From NCBI GenBank assembly GCA_029001845.1, contig JAREWP010000064.1, forward strand, positions 1 to 54,924: 54,924 nucleotides of DNA, written 5' to 3'. Each line of letters opens with the position of its first letter. The stretch's first letter is position 1. Of this stretch, positions 5,271-53,529 are shown piece by piece. Both the position numbers and the translations under genes were made by a program. The notes below the pieces were generated by a model. The model was not told the DNA's origin, did no database searches, and saw only the letters and a program-made list of their open reading frames with translations. Origin of the DNA: Candidatus Magnetocorallium paracelense (GTDB lineage Bacteria > Nitrospirota > Thermodesulfovibrionia > Thermodesulfovibrionales > Magnetobacteriaceae).

Positions 5271-6071
5271 TTATTTAAAACTCTCTTTTTCAGAAGGAAA
5301 TACTCCCTGTTCCACTTCTTCCTTATATCTCTTTATTGCCTCAAGGGCGTTATCTTTTAAACTTGCATATCTCTTGGCGAATTTCGGCATAAATCTGTCA
5401 AAGAGACCAAGAAGATCGTGGAGCACAAGTATCTGGCCGTCACAATACATGCCGGCTCCTATACCAATCGTTGGGATTTCCAGTTCCTCTGTAATCTGTT
5501 TCGCCAAATCCATTGGTACGGCTTCCAGTACAATACAAAAGGCTCCGGCGTCTTCCATTCGGCGGGCCTCATCGAGCAGTTTTTTCCCTGCTTCCTCAGA
5601 TCTGCCTTGCACTTTGAATCCGCCCATTTTATAAATTGACTGAGGAGTCAGTCCTATGTGCGCCATGACAGGTATGTCGGCAGAGACAATGGCCTTTACC
5701 TGCTCGAGTATCTCAGTCCCTCCCTCTATTTTAATTCCCTGAACGCCTCCCTCTTTTAAAAACCTGCCGGCGTTCTTTACAGCTTCTGAAGGGGAAAGCT
5801 GATATGACATAAAAGGCATGTCGCCAATAACCATTGCATTATTGACAGCTCTGGATACCAGACCGGCATGATAAACCATCTCGTCCATTGTGACGGGAAG
5901 AGTATTTTCAAGACCCTGAACCACCATAGCCAGAGAATCGCCTACCAGAACGGCGTCGATACCTGCCTCGTCCACTATTTTACCAAATGTGAAATCATAA
6001 GCTGTCAGGAGAGAAAGTTTCTCTCCTTTTTGCTTTTTTTCAAAAAAAGTGTTGACTGTCACTCTCCCCAT
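5271..6071 (-). CDS. panB: 3-methyl-2-oxobutanoate hydroxymethyltransferase PanB
   Basis: A 266-residue TIM-barrel enzyme that adds a hydroxymethyl group from methylene-THF to ketoisovalerate, the first step to pantoate and coenzyme A. Conserved blocks include LTAYDFTFGKIVDEAGID near the N-terminus, VGDSLAMVVQG (metal-binding Asp), KIEGG, MAHIGLTPQS and IPTIGIGAG. Length fits the family (about 260-275). GAGG lies a few bases before the ATG. It is 43 nt downstream of metF and 92 nt upstream of thyX. The clustering joins three users or producers of methylene-THF. No panC is present in the window. Confidence 0.97.
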   Translation of the reverse strand: MGRVTVNTFFEKKQKGEKLSLLTAYDFTFGKIVDEAGIDAVLVGDSLAMVVQGLENTLPVTMDEMVYHAGLVSRAVNNAMVIGDMPFMSYQLSPSEAVKNAGRFLKEGGVQGIKIEGGTEILEQVKAIVSADIPVMAHIGLTPQSIYKMGGFKVQGRSEEAGKKLLDEARRMEDAGAFCIVLEAVPMDLAKQITEELEIPTIGIGAGMYCDGQILVLHDLLGLFDRFMPKFAKRYASLKDNALEAIKRYKEEVEQGVFPSEKESFK

Positions 6072-6114: not shown

Positions 6115-6993
6115 CTATAATCCTGCTTTTTCCATTATCAAGGGCACCTTATCTTCCATGCCTATCGCCATAATGTGAACACCGTCGCAAACCTTCTCTT
6201 CCTTTAACTGACGAATATGCCTGGCGCATATCTCCATACCTGTTTCCAGTCCTTTGCCCTTGCCTGCGGCTTTGACCTCATCTATAAGTTCCTGAGGTAC
6301 TTTGATTCCGGGGACGAAATTGTTCAGGAAGTTCGCCATCCCGGCGCTTTTTAACACAACAAATCCGGCTAGAACCTTTACAGGGAACTTTCTCGCAAAG
6401 CTCATAAATTCTTTAAATTTCTCGATATCGTAAATTGCCTGGGTTTGAAAAAAATTGGCCCCTGCTTTAACCTTTTTTTCGAATTTTATAAGCTGCGGCT
6501 CAAGAGGATTGGCCTCAGGTGTGACGACTGCTCCCTGAAAGAAATCAAGAGAACCCTGCATTTCGTTTCCGGACATATCCTTTCCATTATTCATTTGATC
6601 CACTACTTTTAACAATTGTACGGATTCGATATCGTAAACAGGTTTAGCCTCTTTGTGATCGCCGGCGCTTACATGGTCGCCTGTCATACAGAGGACATTT
6701 TTTATTCCAATTACATTTGCGCCCAGCAGATCGGACTGTATTCCTATTCTGTTTCTGTCTCTGCATGTCACTTGGAGGATTGGTTCAAGACCCTTTTCAA
6801 TTGCAATTTTACTGACAGCCATCGAACATATCCTCATCACTGCTGACTGATTATCCGTTACATTTACAGCGTCTAACTTACCTTTTAATATATCCATATG
6901 GTGAAGCATTTCTTTTATGTCAGTCCCCTTGGGCGGACCTACCTCTGCAGTTACAACGAACTTACCCGAATCGAGCGCTTCCTTGAATGTCAT
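6115..6993 (-). CDS. metF: Methylenetetrahydrofolate reductase, MetF
   Basis: A 292-residue flavoprotein of the MTHFR family that interconverts methylene-THF and methyl-THF. Visible motifs are TAEVGPPKG (catalytic Glu region), NVTDNQSAVMRICS, LQVTCRDRNRIGIQSDLLG, VLCMTGDH (FAD binding) and ANFFQTQAIYDIEKF. It has the short bacterial length, with no regulatory domain. GGAGGAGAG precedes the ATG. The adjacent upstream gene encodes the zinc/iron-sulfur partner MetV, the arrangement found in acetogens, where MetVF serves the methyl branch of the Wood-Ljungdahl pathway. It may therefore work in energy or carbon metabolism as well as methionine supply. Confidence 0.96.
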   Translation of the reverse strand: MTFKEALDSGKFVVTAEVGPPKGTDIKEMLHHMDILKGKLDAVNVTDNQSAVMRICSMAVSKIAIEKGLEPILQVTCRDRNRIGIQSDLLGANVIGIKNVLCMTGDHVSAGDHKEAKPVYDIESVQLLKVVDQMNNGKDMSGNEMQGSLDFFQGAVVTPEANPLEPQLIKFEKKVKAGANFFQTQAIYDIEKFKEFMSFARKFPVKVLAGFVVLKSAGMANFLNNFVPGIKVPQELIDEVKAAGKGKGLETGMEICARHIRQLKEEKVCDGVHIMAIGMEDKVPLIMEKAGL

Positions 6994-7091: not shown

Positions 7092-7766
7092 TTATTTCGC
7101 TGCTTTCTCTTTGTCTTTATCCCGAGTGCTTATGATTCTGGGTTTCTGGCTGGCGGACCAATCCTTTGCTTCTATTGTTTCCTTCATTTCATCGAGGCTG
7201 TCCAGTTTTTTCTGCCTTTCATATATTTTTACCCACACGCATTTAATGTCCGAGCTTACTTCACAGTTACCGTCCGTCATTCCGCCGCAAGGTCCGTTTA
7301 AAAGTCCCTTTGGGCAGTTTGTAACAGGACAGATGCCGGCGGTTTTGTCAATAATACACTCGCCGCAAAGAGAACATCTCTCATCAAACATCTGAAATCG
7401 TGTCATATTGCCAAGGAACATACTGTCATTGGAGGGATACACAGCCTTGTCGTCAAAGAGCTCTACAGCAGCCTGTGTCCCGGCGCCGCAGGACATTGCA
7501 ACAACACAGTCAGCTTCGTCAAGGGCTTCTTTGTAGGCCTTTAACTCCTTTTTGGTGCCAAGCACCTGGCAACCGGTCTTTGGCACCATGGAACCTAACA
7601 CTTCTTTGCCATCCGCTTCCAGCATCTCTTTCATCTCCTGTATCGCTTCATCGCTTCCTGTACCACAAAGCGAGGCGCACTCGGAGCAGCCCATTAAAAA
7701 CATTTTTTTATGCTTTTTGACACTCTCTAAAAAGTCTTTACTATCCTTTTTCTTTGTAATGATCAT
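7092..7766 (-). CDS. metV: MetV-like partner of methylene-THF reductase
   Basis: A 224-residue cysteine-rich protein. The N-terminal half has MGCSECASLCGTGSDEA and a Rossmann-like segment with VVAMSCGAGTQAAVELF. The C-terminal half has a dense cluster (CSLCGECI, then ICPVTNCPKGLLNGPCGG and a later CEV..C) that should hold zinc or iron-sulfur sites. This matches the 'MTHFR C-terminal' protein MetV, which in acetogens binds MetF and feeds it electrons. It is directly upstream of metF on the same strand with a strong AGGAGGGG ribosome site. The gap to metF is 98 nt. The tail from about residue 195 is charged and probably flexible. Confidence 0.9.
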   Translation of the reverse strand: MIITKKKDSKDFLESVKKHKKMFLMGCSECASLCGTGSDEAIQEMKEMLEADGKEVLGSMVPKTGCQVLGTKKELKAYKEALDEADCVVAMSCGAGTQAAVELFDDKAVYPSNDSMFLGNMTRFQMFDERCSLCGECIIDKTAGICPVTNCPKGLLNGPCGGMTDGNCEVSSDIKCVWVKIYERQKKLDSLDEMKETIEAKDWSASQKPRIISTRDKDKEKAAK

Positions 7767-7960: not shown

Positions 7961-9304
7961 CTACTTCATTAGTGTTGGAAATATCGACTCCAGAGCGTCA
8001 ACAGCGTGTACCGGATGGCTGTCTGAAGATACTGCCCTTCCATAAAGCTTTTCTGCATTACCTTCCACCTCCGATGCGCCTGCGCCGGAATAGGACGACA
8101 GCAGTTCCGTAAAAACCGATTTTACGGTGTTTTTATTATCTTCAAGGGCTTTTCTGACTTTATCGATGTTTTGATAGAGCATTCCACGCCATCCCTGATG
8201 TACGAGCTTGGTTACTGTAGCAGGCCCCACGCCTCCGGTTTCCAGCGTATAGGCTGCCGCTTTTGAACGGGCGGCAGGATCGACATCTCCGTAAGGCTTT
8301 TTGCCGTCCTTTCTGAAAGATGTGGATGCATCTATAATCAAACACCCCTCTTTCAGCATGTCCGAGGTAAAAAAGAATTCCGTGTCACTATGCACTTTGT
8401 AAGGGTGAAAACCCATGCAGCCGAATACTATATCGGCCCGTTTCGAGAGTTCCGTGTAAACTTTTACCTGAGTTTCTTTATCCGATGAACCGCCGGTTCC
8501 CGTGCGAGTATGGAGAGGGCCGAGTACGGTTGCATCAAAACGTTTTAAAAGATTAAAGAGCGGTTCGCCTACAATCGCGCTTCTTCCTGCGACGAGCACT
8601 TCAAGACCTCCAAATGATGCGATTCCGTCCGGGCGCAGCTTGATTCCCTTTTCTCTGTGCAAATAAACACTGGCGAGATCTACCATTCCTCCCGGCGTGC
8701 AACAATCGTAATAACGCTCGGCGCCGAGAGACATCAGACCGAGAGTGACCTGATTCAGACCGTCACCGTCTTTTGGAAGATCGATTCTGTTACAAAGGGC
8801 TGTTGTGTCGATTTCCTGACCGGCTTTACCTCCAAAGGGAAGTTGAAACATCAATATGGAAATGGAACTGTCCTTGTTCCATTTGGCGAGCATTTCATAC
8901 ATCTCCGAGGTTGTAACAGTAGAAGGGAGTTCTTCCACTGCGCTGGACAGACCGGAGAGCTTTGTCGTCGCCGATTTCATTCCTACATAACTGCGCGAGG
9001 CTGCAACCTTGGGGTCGTCTTTGTCTCCTACCAATACGGTTAATACTTTATGCGCAGCAGGATCGACCTCTTTAAAGGCGGAGATTTCTTTTAAGAAATC
9101 AGAACGTTTGCTCAGTTCCGGGATAATAACGTCCTGGTATCCCTTGGGATATTTCTGCTCACCCTTTACAATACCCGATCCGTTAATAACGCTTGAGTAT
9201 TCGTCGTTTCTAAAGGGGCGAGAGATAATGTGTTTAAACTCGTCCTGATTGAATAACCAATGATTCAGACCGCCGATCCGATCGTTGTATTCTCTGTAAG
9301 CCAT
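7961..9304 (-). CDS. FolD-like methylene-THF dehydrogenase/cyclohydrolase, unusually long
   Basis: A 447-residue protein with the FolD motifs in the correct order. They are LVGDKDDPKVAASRSYVGMK (about 91-110, with catalytic Tyr106 and Lys110), FQLPFGG, DLPKDGDGLNQ, CCTPGG, VAGRSAIVGEPLFNLL (NADP fold), ADIVFGCMG and GGVGPATVTKL. FolD interconverts methylene-, methenyl- and formyl-THF. Bacterial FolD is about 285 residues. Here there is an extra N-terminal segment of about 55-80 residues, insertions, and a C-terminal extension of about 85 residues. The residues needed for chemistry are kept, so activity is likely. It stands at the head of the metV-metF group, after a strong terminator, with AAGGAG before the ATG. 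It may be a lineage-specific enzyme for the C1 pathway. Confidence 0.85.
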   Translation of the reverse strand: MAYREYNDRIGGLNHWLFNQDEFKHIISRPFRNDEYSSVINGSGIVKGEQKYPKGYQDVIIPELSKRSDFLKEISAFKEVDPAAHKVLTVLVGDKDDPKVAASRSYVGMKSATTKLSGLSSAVEELPSTVTTSEMYEMLAKWNKDSSISILMFQLPFGGKAGQEIDTTALCNRIDLPKDGDGLNQVTLGLMSLGAERYYDCCTPGGMVDLASVYLHREKGIKLRPDGIASFGGLEVLVAGRSAIVGEPLFNLLKRFDATVLGPLHTRTGTGGSSDKETQVKVYTELSKRADIVFGCMGFHPYKVHSDTEFFFTSDMLKEGCLIIDASTSFRKDGKKPYGDVDPAARSKAAAYTLETGGVGPATVTKLVHQGWRGMLYQNIDKVRKALEDNKNTVKSVFTELLSSYSGAGASEVEGNAEKLYGRAVSSDSHPVHAVDALESIFPTLMK

Positions 9305-9336: not shown

Positions 9337-9400
9337 AAAAAATGAATAATTGAAGGATTTGGGAATTGCAATTCCCAAATCCTTCAATTATTCATTTTTT
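9337..9400 (-). terminator. 64-bp perfect palindrome acting as terminator of folE
   Basis: Positions 9337-9368 and 9369-9400 are exact reverse complements (32-bp arms with no spacer, centred on TTGCAA). The right arm overlaps the last codons and TGA of folE. On the minus strand the stem ends in ATTTTTTATTTTTTT, so it should terminate transcription leaving folE. It separates the cysD-to-folE run from the FolD-like/metVF group. Confidence 0.75.
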
Positions 9401-9955
9401 TAATCCCATTAATCCCAGCATCTCCTCCCTCGTTGACTGGGTGGATCTGAAAATGCCTCTTACTGCTGATGTGACCGTTCTTGATCCCGGTTTTCTTATT
9501 CCCCTCATACTCAGGCACAGGTGTTCGGCGTCTATAACCACCATTGCTCCCTTTGGGTTAAGTTTCTCCATAATAAGATCGGCCAGTTGCGTAGTCAGTC
9601 TTTCCTGCACCTGTAACCGCCTTGCGAATATTTCCAGCGCCTTTGCAAGCTCGCCAATGCCGGCAATCCGTCCTTCGCCCGGGATATAGGCGATGTGGGC
9701 CTTACCGAAAAAGGGCAGCAAGTGGTGCTCACAAAACGAATAAAAATAGATATCCTTTAACAACACCATCTCGTCATGATTCTCTCCTTCGATGGGCTGC
9801 ATAATGTCTTTCGTTGAAGTGGAGATACCTGACAGGACATCTTCGAACATGTTCGCAACCCTTGAGGGAGTCTTTCCCAAACCGGGTCTGTCAGGATCTT
9901 CACCCAAACCCTCAAGTATCATTCTTACGCCTTTTTCGATTTTTTCTTTATCCAT
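9392..9955 (-). CDS. folE: GTP cyclohydrolase I
   Basis: A 187-residue enzyme making dihydroneopterin triphosphate from GTP, the first step of folate synthesis. Diagnostic segments are [14 protein letters not shown] near residue 25, [20 protein letters not shown] (zinc Cys and His), [15 protein letters not shown], and [18 protein letters not shown] with the second zinc Cys. Length is standard. The stop codon is embedded in a 64-bp palindrome that forms its terminator. It lies downstream of a 5-formyl-THF cyclo-ligase gene in the same minus-strand run, so pterin synthesis and folate salvage are expressed together. The leader has no clear Shine-Dalgarno. Confidence 0.97.
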
Positions 9956-9991: not shown

Positions 9992-10567
9992 TCAGTTGCG
10001 TCTGTCTATCAGCTCACGGTCAGTAACTACCATGTCCATGGTAACATCGTGACGCTCTACAGGCACTCTTTCTATTATTTGTTCGCTATAGGCGATTGCT
10101 ATCAGCATCGGCGGCATCTCCAGATTGCTTAAAAGGAGGTCATAAAATCCTCCGCCGTATCCCAGTCTGTTACACTTCCTGTCAAAGGCCACTCCGGGCA
10201 TTATTATAATATCTGGAAAGTCCGGGTTTACTCTTCTCTCTTCCGATACCACCGGTTCAGGTATGTTCATAAACCCCGGAACCAATTCCGATATATTCAT
10301 AATATTATAGAGAAGCAACTTTCTGTTTTGTCTGTCCACCTTTGGAAGGATAACTTCTTTTCCTCTGTCTAAAGATTTGGATATCATCCCGAAAGTGTCG
10401 GGTTCGCTTTTAAATGAGGCAAAAAACATTATTCTATTTGCCTTTGTAAACTGTTTTAAAGAAAAAAGCCGGTTTTCAATAGAGCGGTCTCTTTTCTCTT
10501 TGCCTCTTTGCTCAATTGAATCGCGGGATTGTAGAACCTCTTTTCTGATTCTGGCTTTTTCGTTCAT
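9992..10567 (-). CDS. 5-formyltetrahydrofolate cyclo-ligase
   Basis: A 191-residue MTHFS/YgfA-type enzyme that uses ATP to turn 5-formyl-THF into methenyl-THF. The N-terminal KARIRKEVLQSRDSI, the FASFKSEPDTFGMI segment and especially PGVAFDRKCNRLGYGGGFYD (ATP and folate site) are family hallmarks. The length is normal. It starts 16 nt after the end of cooC on the same strand and is followed by folE, so it sits within one transcription unit devoted to C1 carriers. No strong Shine-Dalgarno is seen, and coupling to cooC termination is likely. Confidence 0.93.
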   Translation of the reverse strand: MNEKARIRKEVLQSRDSIEQRGKEKRDRSIENRLFSLKQFTKANRIMFFASFKSEPDTFGMISKSLDRGKEVILPKVDRQNRKLLLYNIMNISELVPGFMNIPEPVVSEERRVNPDFPDIIIMPGVAFDRKCNRLGYGGGFYDLLLSNLEMPPMLIAIAYSEQIIERVPVERHDVTMDMVVTDRELIDRRN

Positions 10568-10583: not shown

Positions 10584-11378
10584 TCATCTGCCTGTTCCGC
10601 TTTGGGCTGCTATCTTTTCGATTTCGCCTTTTATAACTTTCACTTCGTCTATCGTTTTTTCAGCTTTTAAAAATGGAGGAATACCTTTGAGGTCGGCTTC
10701 TACAACATCATTACTGAAACCAATGGCCCCTATAAAATGCATATCGCCGATAGTGCTCTTTATAATATCGATATCTTCACTGCCTCTTGTTTTATTCGCA
10801 ACGACTAACACATTATCGATGCCTATGCCCTTCGCCATATCATTGACTGCCACGGCGGTCTGAAGACTCCTTTTGCCAGGTTCTACAACGACAATAAATG
10901 CATCCACAGAGGCTGATGTTCCCCTGGTGAGGTGCTCGATACCAGCTTCCATATCCGCTATAACAACATCGTCTCTTTCCAGGACAATGTGTCTTAATAA
11001 TCGTTTGAGAAAAACATTTTCAGGGCAATAACACCCTGATGTCGCCTCTTTATGTTTTCCCATTACCAGAAGCCTTACCCCGTTTTTCTCATGACTAAAG
11101 CTTTCCGGTATATCGTCTACCTTAGGGTTTAGTTTAAACACACCGCCCATTGATCCGGGAGTTGCGCCCGTCCTCTCTGCTATCAATTCCTTCATCTCCG
11201 AGACAGGCTTGATGGCTTTTGTCTCTTCATCGGTGAGACCGAAAGCAGCCGCAAGATTGGCGTCGGGATCAGCGTCTACTGCGATAACCTTTTTTCCGTC
11301 AAGGGAGTATAAGTGACTCAGAATAGAAGAGAGAGTCGTCTTGCCGACTCCTCCCTTTCCTGCAATCGCGATTTTCAT
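10584..11378 (-). CDS. cooC: CooC-like CO dehydrogenase maturation ATPase
   Basis: A 264-residue MinD/SIMIBI-type ATPase. The deviant P-loop GKGGVGKTT (7-15), AVDADPDANLAAAFG, and the Cys pair SGCYCPEN (C116, C118, which bind metal between two subunits in CooC) identify the CooC/AcsF group. These load nickel into CO dehydrogenase or acetyl-CoA synthase. ADMEAGIEHLTRGT and VVEPGKRSLQTA are also typical. No CODH genes lie in the window, but with metV, metF and a FolD-like gene in the same run the organism plausibly has a Wood-Ljungdahl pathway. The ATG has no clear Shine-Dalgarno. Confidence 0.88.
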   Translation of the reverse strand: MKIAIAGKGGVGKTTLSSILSHLYSLDGKKVIAVDADPDANLAAAFGLTDEETKAIKPVSEMKELIAERTGATPGSMGGVFKLNPKVDDIPESFSHEKNGVRLLVMGKHKEATSGCYCPENVFLKRLLRHIVLERDDVVIADMEAGIEHLTRGTSASVDAFIVVVEPGKRSLQTAVAVNDMAKGIGIDNVLVVANKTRGSEDIDIIKSTIGDMHFIGAIGFSNDVVEADLKGIPPFLKAEKTIDEVKVIKGEIEKIAAQSGTGR

Positions 11379-28037: not shown

Positions 28038-28108
28038 ACACGGCGCTCGATGAATAGCATAGAAGCAGGTTATACATCAATACCATTTGACGTGATATTT
28101 TACTCATG

Positions 28109-28156
28109 CAAAGACACGGAGACACAAAGTTTTTTCCTTGTGTCTCCGTGTCTTTG
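28109..28156. repeat. Inverted repeat between infC and rpmI
   Basis: CAAAGACACGGAGACACAA (28109-28127) pairs with TTGTGTCTCCGTGTCTTTG (28138-28156), about 19 bp around a short T-rich loop. No T-run follows. A related GTGTCTTTGTGTGAGA recurs after rplT. It may attenuate or stabilise the mRNA, or be a REP-like repeat. Confidence 0.6.
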
Positions 28157-28214
28157 TGTGAGAATAAAGTATCCGGCAAAGCAGTACTTACAAATTTGTA
28201 AACAGGAGGTCTAA

Positions 28215-53418: not shown

Positions 53419-53529
53419 CGTCATTCCCGCAATCCCTTAGGCGGGAATCCAGAGATCGAAGAAAGAAATTGTGTAATTAACGGTGTTAAAAAACGCCGGA
53501 TTCCCGCTTAAGGGACTGCGGGAATGACG
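53419..53529. repeat. MITE-like inverted repeat with 32-bp arms
   Basis: CGTCATTCCCGCAATCCCTT (start of 53419-53450) is repeated inverted at 53498-53529 with two mismatches over 32 bp. The spacer is 47 bp and non-coding. Elements with TCATTCCCGC ends are common in proteobacterial genomes. Confidence 0.75.

Follow-up and report, generated by a model that had tools for sequence, protein, structure and literature searches.

A divergent, lengthened FolD in the slot of the ordinary enzyme within a one-carbon operon of Nitrospirota

We describe a FolD that is half as long again as the usual enzyme and that stands, in one genome of Nitrospirota, at the place of a one-carbon (C1) operon where related genomes carry an ordinary folD. 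The gene lies in what we call the window, i.e., the whole stretch of 54,924 nucleotides analyzed here (Table 1). We think it very probable that this divergent bifunctional FolD replaced the ordinary one at its own operon slot, most likely by horizontal transfer. Our analysis confirms the long FolD as a variant of a familiar enzyme, and a sharply delimited one.

Table 1. Coordinates of the long folD, its parts, and the neighboring features in the window
Feature	Coordinates	Strand	Basis
Long folD (including stop codon)	7961..9304	-	ORF, Pfam matches, alignment with 19 full-length relatives
N-terminal extension, residues 1-34	9203..9304	-	not covered by the matches to solved FolDs; conservation in the clade
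FolD core, residues 35-380, with clade-specific insertions	8165..9202	-	alignment and predicted structure
C-terminal extension, residues 381-447	7964..8164	-	predicted model and alignment
metV (PF12225)	7092..7766	-	Pfam
metF (PF02219)	6115..6993	-	Pfam
panB-like gene	5271..6071	-	ORF; same gene after metF in relatives; groups with family f1
folE, GTP cyclohydrolase I	9392..9955	-	family models
fthC, 5-formyl-THF cyclo-ligase	9992..10567	-	family models
CooC-like ATPase	10584..11378	-	P-loop ATPase families; groups with family f1 copies
64-nt palindrome	9337..9400	.	

Results

The long FolD and known enzymes

The first-pass annotation placed here a FolD-like enzyme about 160 residues too long, and both the location and the excess are borne out. 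The ORF encodes 447 residues, starts with ATG just downstream of a ribosome-binding-like AAGGAGA (AGGAG-type), and exceeds E. coli FolD (288 aa) by 159 residues. An origin of this length in a frame or assembly artefact was ruled out by full-length relatives, 77-84% identical, in 19 other records. The protein belongs to the FolD superfamily by its domains, since PF00763 (3.9e-12, 46.9 bits against 32.8) and PF02882 (6.9e-16, 58.4 bits against 27) both exceed the curated Pfam cut-offs. It falls outside the canonical FolD of NCBIfam by score and by length (447 aa versus about 280-300): 30 models match, the 25 listed are all FolD models and all score far below their cut-offs, and the best score among these listed matches is 103.2 bits against a cut-off of 401.

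The bifunctional FolD of the E. coli type (~285 aa) shares with the long form both Pfam domains, the YxxxK motif, the Gln, the Asp, the GxS loop, the GGVGPxT motif, the predicted fold, and, in relatives, the operon slot. The long form differs from it by an identity of only about 30%, by extensions of 34 residues at the N terminus and ~67 at the C terminus, by several internal insertions, and by staying under every NCBIfam FolD cut-off among the matches listed. Among solved structures, our sequence searches identified ordinary FolDs and human MTHFD enzymes as relatives and returned nothing bearing these extensions. The best structural match to the predicted model is the dehydrogenase/cyclohydrolase domain of human MTHFD1 (1a4i, 9iuo; Z 33.8, rmsd 1.8, 285 residues aligned), which has the same catalytic residues; the long FolD is 28% identical to it, lacks a fused formate-THF ligase domain, and has different extensions. 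Human MTHFD2 and MTHFD2L match the fold with Z about 32 and 29-31% identity over the aligned part, and their alignments end at model residues 377-380, leaving the C-terminal extension unmatched. Yeast MTD1 (1edz), an NAD-dependent dehydrogenase not known to have cyclohydrolase activity, shows the same fold (Z 26.9) and a weak sequence match (6e-4).

The long form was not found on plasmids, where 0 records covered 80% of the query, and viral contigs yielded no relative of the long clade. Titles and abstract openings in the literature describe no long FolD, a weak result given that "FolD" collides with "fold"; passages from PMC7325909, PMC10278575, and PMC2702500 hold nothing bearing on FolD length.

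Catalytic and cofactor residues

All the catalytic FolD motifs had been reported as kept, and alignment with E. coli FolD agrees: Y106, K110, Q154, D179/D181, G240-R241-S242, and G357-P361 fall on its catalytic and cofactor motifs, so that the Tyr, Lys, Gln, and Asp expected of a FolD are found as Y106, K110, Q154, and D181. Across the clade, Gln and Asp occur in 23/23 long rows, Tyr and Lys in 22/23, the remaining row being a gap in a partial sequence. As described in PMC3338484 and PMC6443876, the Lys of ordinary FolD is the general acid-base of the cyclohydrolase step, the Gln positions that Lys, and the Asp binds the pterin; the long FolD has all three. Its cofactor loop reads GRS and H-T-R-T, and the His is followed by Thr in each of the 23 long rows, and by either Thr or Ser in the ordinary rows from Nitrospirota. 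These loop residues are compatible with, rather than proof of, the use of NADP.

Predicted structure and the extensions

The AlphaFold model (mean pLDDT 86.7, pTM 0.89) rests on an alignment of 32 rows, i.e., 20 near-identical long rows and, for depth, 12 FolDs from viral contigs (80 loci found, 23 compared, 12 kept). A first model from the 20 near-identical rows (pLDDT 60.7) and its Foldseek list were set aside as support for their low confidence. Residues 35-380 of the retained model have the FolD fold, matching solved FolDs with Z up to 33.8. This delimits an N-terminal extension of about 34 residues, strongly conserved in the clade (IGG-NHWLF, HIISRPFR), and a C-terminal part beginning where the fold ends at residue 380. 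The latter is helical (380-389, 391-406, 410-425, and 431-446), is predicted with pLDDT mostly over 90 across residues 381-447, and carries a conserved SHPVHAVDALE. Structure prediction thus upholds the N-terminal extension, the insertions, and the C-terminal extension of the first-pass annotation, but shortens the last from 85 residues to about 67. In the alignment of the 20 long rows (447 columns, window included), the extensions are conserved together with the core. VIA-align barely tested the parts of the model outside residues 35-383, and hence we make no claim of a new fold for the C-terminal part. The N-terminal segment and the C-terminal helices probably have a structural or oligomeric role.

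A distinct clade with a patchy distribution

We found relatives of the long FolD at 22 loci by scanning genome contigs (best-segment identity of 77 to 86%). The scan used exact short peptides and therefore detects near relatives only, with Desulfobacterota and other large phyla outside its coverage; more distant long forms may exist elsewhere. Nineteen of these loci encode full-length proteins of 446-449 aa, 77-84% identical to that of the window, and were aligned; the partial L017, L023, and L024 were left out of the alignment and kept in the tree. The tree has 82 rows and sets the 23 long ones apart by a branch supported at 100/100, which bears out the earlier suggestion of a distinct FolD branch. 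The branch between the long clade and ordinary FolD is a long one (1.88 to either side of the root as drawn), and with six reference rows only the rooting against other bacterial FolDs is weak. The long FolD of the window is placed among rows of another family and of other phyla (96/94).

Among the genomes of the class analyzed, the long form occurs in 22/230: 21 belong to family f15, and the remaining one is the genome of the window, the only carrier among the 19 genomes of its own family, f1. Outside the class, it was found in 2/9 genomes of one small phylum and 1/4 of another. As a separate observation, the window's genome measures 6.0 Mb and the 18 other genomes of family f1 1.9-4.2 Mb.

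The long and the ordinary form exclude each other. By a count of PF02882 genes, the 56 distinct genomes divide into 25 with the long form, 27 with the ordinary one, none with both, and four with neither (G323, G423, G424, and G377, the last with a degenerate paralog only); the association is strong (Fisher 4e-12), kinship not being corrected for. The set comprises 46 genomes left from a first set after removal of ten duplicates with identical match coordinates, and 10 further ones. Two ordinary counts rest on incomplete genes, a contig-end fragment in G325 and a gene broken in two in G207. In the survey of the class, G483 shares its coordinates with G395 and was taken as the same record. Most assemblies are drafts and single absences are uncertain; the either-or pattern over 56 genomes is not easily explained by gaps.

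A degenerate normal-length paralog

In 17/25 long-form genomes, no PF02882 match other than the long form itself exceeds the cut-off. The other eight, the window's included, also have a normal-length paralog, which in the window's genome lies on contig C30 (L118:4131-5066). The first-pass annotation raised the possibility of a normal-length folD accompanying an inactive long one. A normal-length FolD-like gene does exist, but the catalytic loss is its own and not that of the long FolD. L118 keeps the cofactor domain and the Asp and has lost the Lys and the Gln. In the 19 paralog rows aligned (L108-L126), the catalytic Lys is replaced throughout (18 Thr, 1 Ile), as is the Gln (17 Leu, 1 Phe, 1 Ile), while both are kept in 34/34 ordinary Nitrospirota rows. 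Furthermore, the paralog reads GKS where FolD has GRS (19 rows) and carries an insertion before PCTP (three rows compared). These genes form their own clade (100/100), occur alongside either FolD, and the neighborhood of L118 is not shared with the 18 other paralog loci. The paralog may be, judging from these substitutions, a dehydrogenase-only or repurposed enzyme, and it is likely mis-annotated as a bifunctional FolD. Because it has lost the catalytic residues, the window's genome has a single intact FolD, the long one.

The operon slot

The window holds a run of genes on the minus strand, in the order cooC, fthC, folE, long folD, metV, metF, panB, and thyX. The names cooC, panB, and thyX were assigned from the sequences themselves: no family model used gives the first, and the second is not a family call. 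Among the ordinary-FolD loci of family f1, 10/11 have cooC-fthC-folE-folD-metV, 8 of them with metF farther along within the stretch used, and the eleventh has fthC-folD. Hence, the window keeps the order of its family with the long folD in place of the ordinary one. Family f15 mostly shows cooC-fthC-long folD-folE-metV-metF-panB. The window did not simply receive the f15 cluster, because there the long folD precedes folE. The cooC and panB of the window group with family f1 (99, SH-aLRT), and the trees of folE, metV, metF, and fthC give no supported placement of its copies. The GC content of the long folD (0.478) is close to that of its neighbors (0.417-0.470), and thus there is no compositional sign of recent transfer.

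A perfect palindrome of 64 nt without spacer separates folE from the long folD and overlaps the folE stop codon. It resembles a terminator in its folding, the inner portion having an energy of -28.7 kcal/mol (z -6.4). It is single copy in the genome, and exact palindromes with arms over 16 nt were absent from 18 relatives' loci scanned. It may be a terminator, a junction scar, or an assembly effect. The long folD had been described as heading a metV-metF group; this is not simply so, as it is preceded on its strand by cooC, fthC, and folE, but given the terminator-like palindrome it could head a transcript. Elsewhere in the window, two more strong inverted repeats occur at 53419-53529 (32-nt arms, 94% complementary) and 28098-28167 (30-nt arms, 87%).

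One-carbon context

Fhs was found in 54/56 genomes, including all 25 with the long form (partial in one), and CdhC in 51/56, in long- and ordinary-FolD genomes alike; two long-form genomes, G395 and G413, miss CdhC. The proposed tie to the Wood-Ljungdahl pathway is therefore right in that the gene sits in a Wood-Ljungdahl-type C1 group, but a special tie of the long form to CODH/ACS was ruled out, CdhC being equally common with the ordinary form. FchA, the monofunctional cyclohydrolase (PF04961), was absent from the window's genome and from all 25 long-form genomes, and present in 1/56 overall, a genome without the long form. Since Fhs, MetVF, and ACS are present, and FchA and the ordinary FolD absent, we see no candidate other than the long FolD for the conversion of 10-formyl-THF to methylene-THF.

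The C1 context is not universal. Five of the 22 long loci (L006, L008, L013, L020, and L022) have none of the C1 genes searched, as the first-pass annotation had allowed for; three of these stretches (L008, L013, and L022) end early on one side, and all five genomes still have Fhs.

Discussion

The long FolD would act as both methylene-THF dehydrogenase and methenyl-THF cyclohydrolase, carrying 10-formyl-THF to methylene-THF and so serving the methyl branch of the Wood-Ljungdahl pathway. We infer the two activities, the cofactor, the direction of the reaction, and the transfer of the gene. The long folD would have arrived, most likely horizontally, from f15, the other family of Nitrospirota in which it occurs, and the ordinary folD would have been displaced in situ within the C1 operon. 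It is possible that more than folD alone was transferred, as the trees of folE, metV, and metF leave room for this.

The history could be different if the long form were an ancient FolD paralog that descended vertically within the class and that most lineages then lost or exchanged for the ordinary enzyme, so that the copy in the window would involve no transfer. The unremarkable GC of the gene agrees with this, as does its 77-84% identity to relatives, similar to the 66-84% of MetF over its matched stretches. We nevertheless find it unlikely, since carriers are so few (one genome in the family of the window, about a tenth of the class), relatives hold an ordinary folD in the same slot, and gene order differs in the other family. 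Transfer followed by displacement remains our preferred account. As for function, the work might be shared, the long FolD providing one activity (e.g., the cyclohydrolase) and the normal-length paralog the dehydrogenase step. The residues of L118 are those expected of a dehydrogenase-only enzyme. However, most long-FolD genomes lack a second PF02882 gene above the cut-off, and the paralog also accompanies the ordinary FolD, i.e., it is independent of the FolD type used, which makes such sharing very improbable.

What the extensions do can be viewed in two further ways. The first-pass annotation imagined the protein docking to MetV/MetF; the extensions would then be a module that channels methylene-THF, and their strong conservation and the presence of metV within the locus stretch in 12/22 long loci could be read in this sense. 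Yet an ordinary FolD of ~285 aa, free of extensions, fills the same slot beside metV-metF, and several long copies lie away from metVF within their locus stretch (e.g., L006, L013, and L020); the idea is unsupported on these points and we hold it to be highly unlikely. A more speculative thought, which we would call doubtful, is that the conserved N-terminal and C-terminal helical regions form a new functional module, acting in quaternary structure, in coupling to a partner or a different electron carrier, or in control. If true, this module would be a reason for organisms with the Wood-Ljungdahl methyl branch to drop the ordinary enzyme whenever the long form arrives.

If a bifunctional long FolD did replace the ordinary one, as we favor, an enzyme central to one-carbon metabolism can give way, at an unchanged operon position, to a relative that is only ~30% identical and longer by half. 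In genome annotation and pathway models, the FolD of these organisms should be taken to be the long form and not the degenerate normal-length paralog. Finally, the strict either-or pattern lends itself to a clean comparison aimed at the contribution of the extensions.
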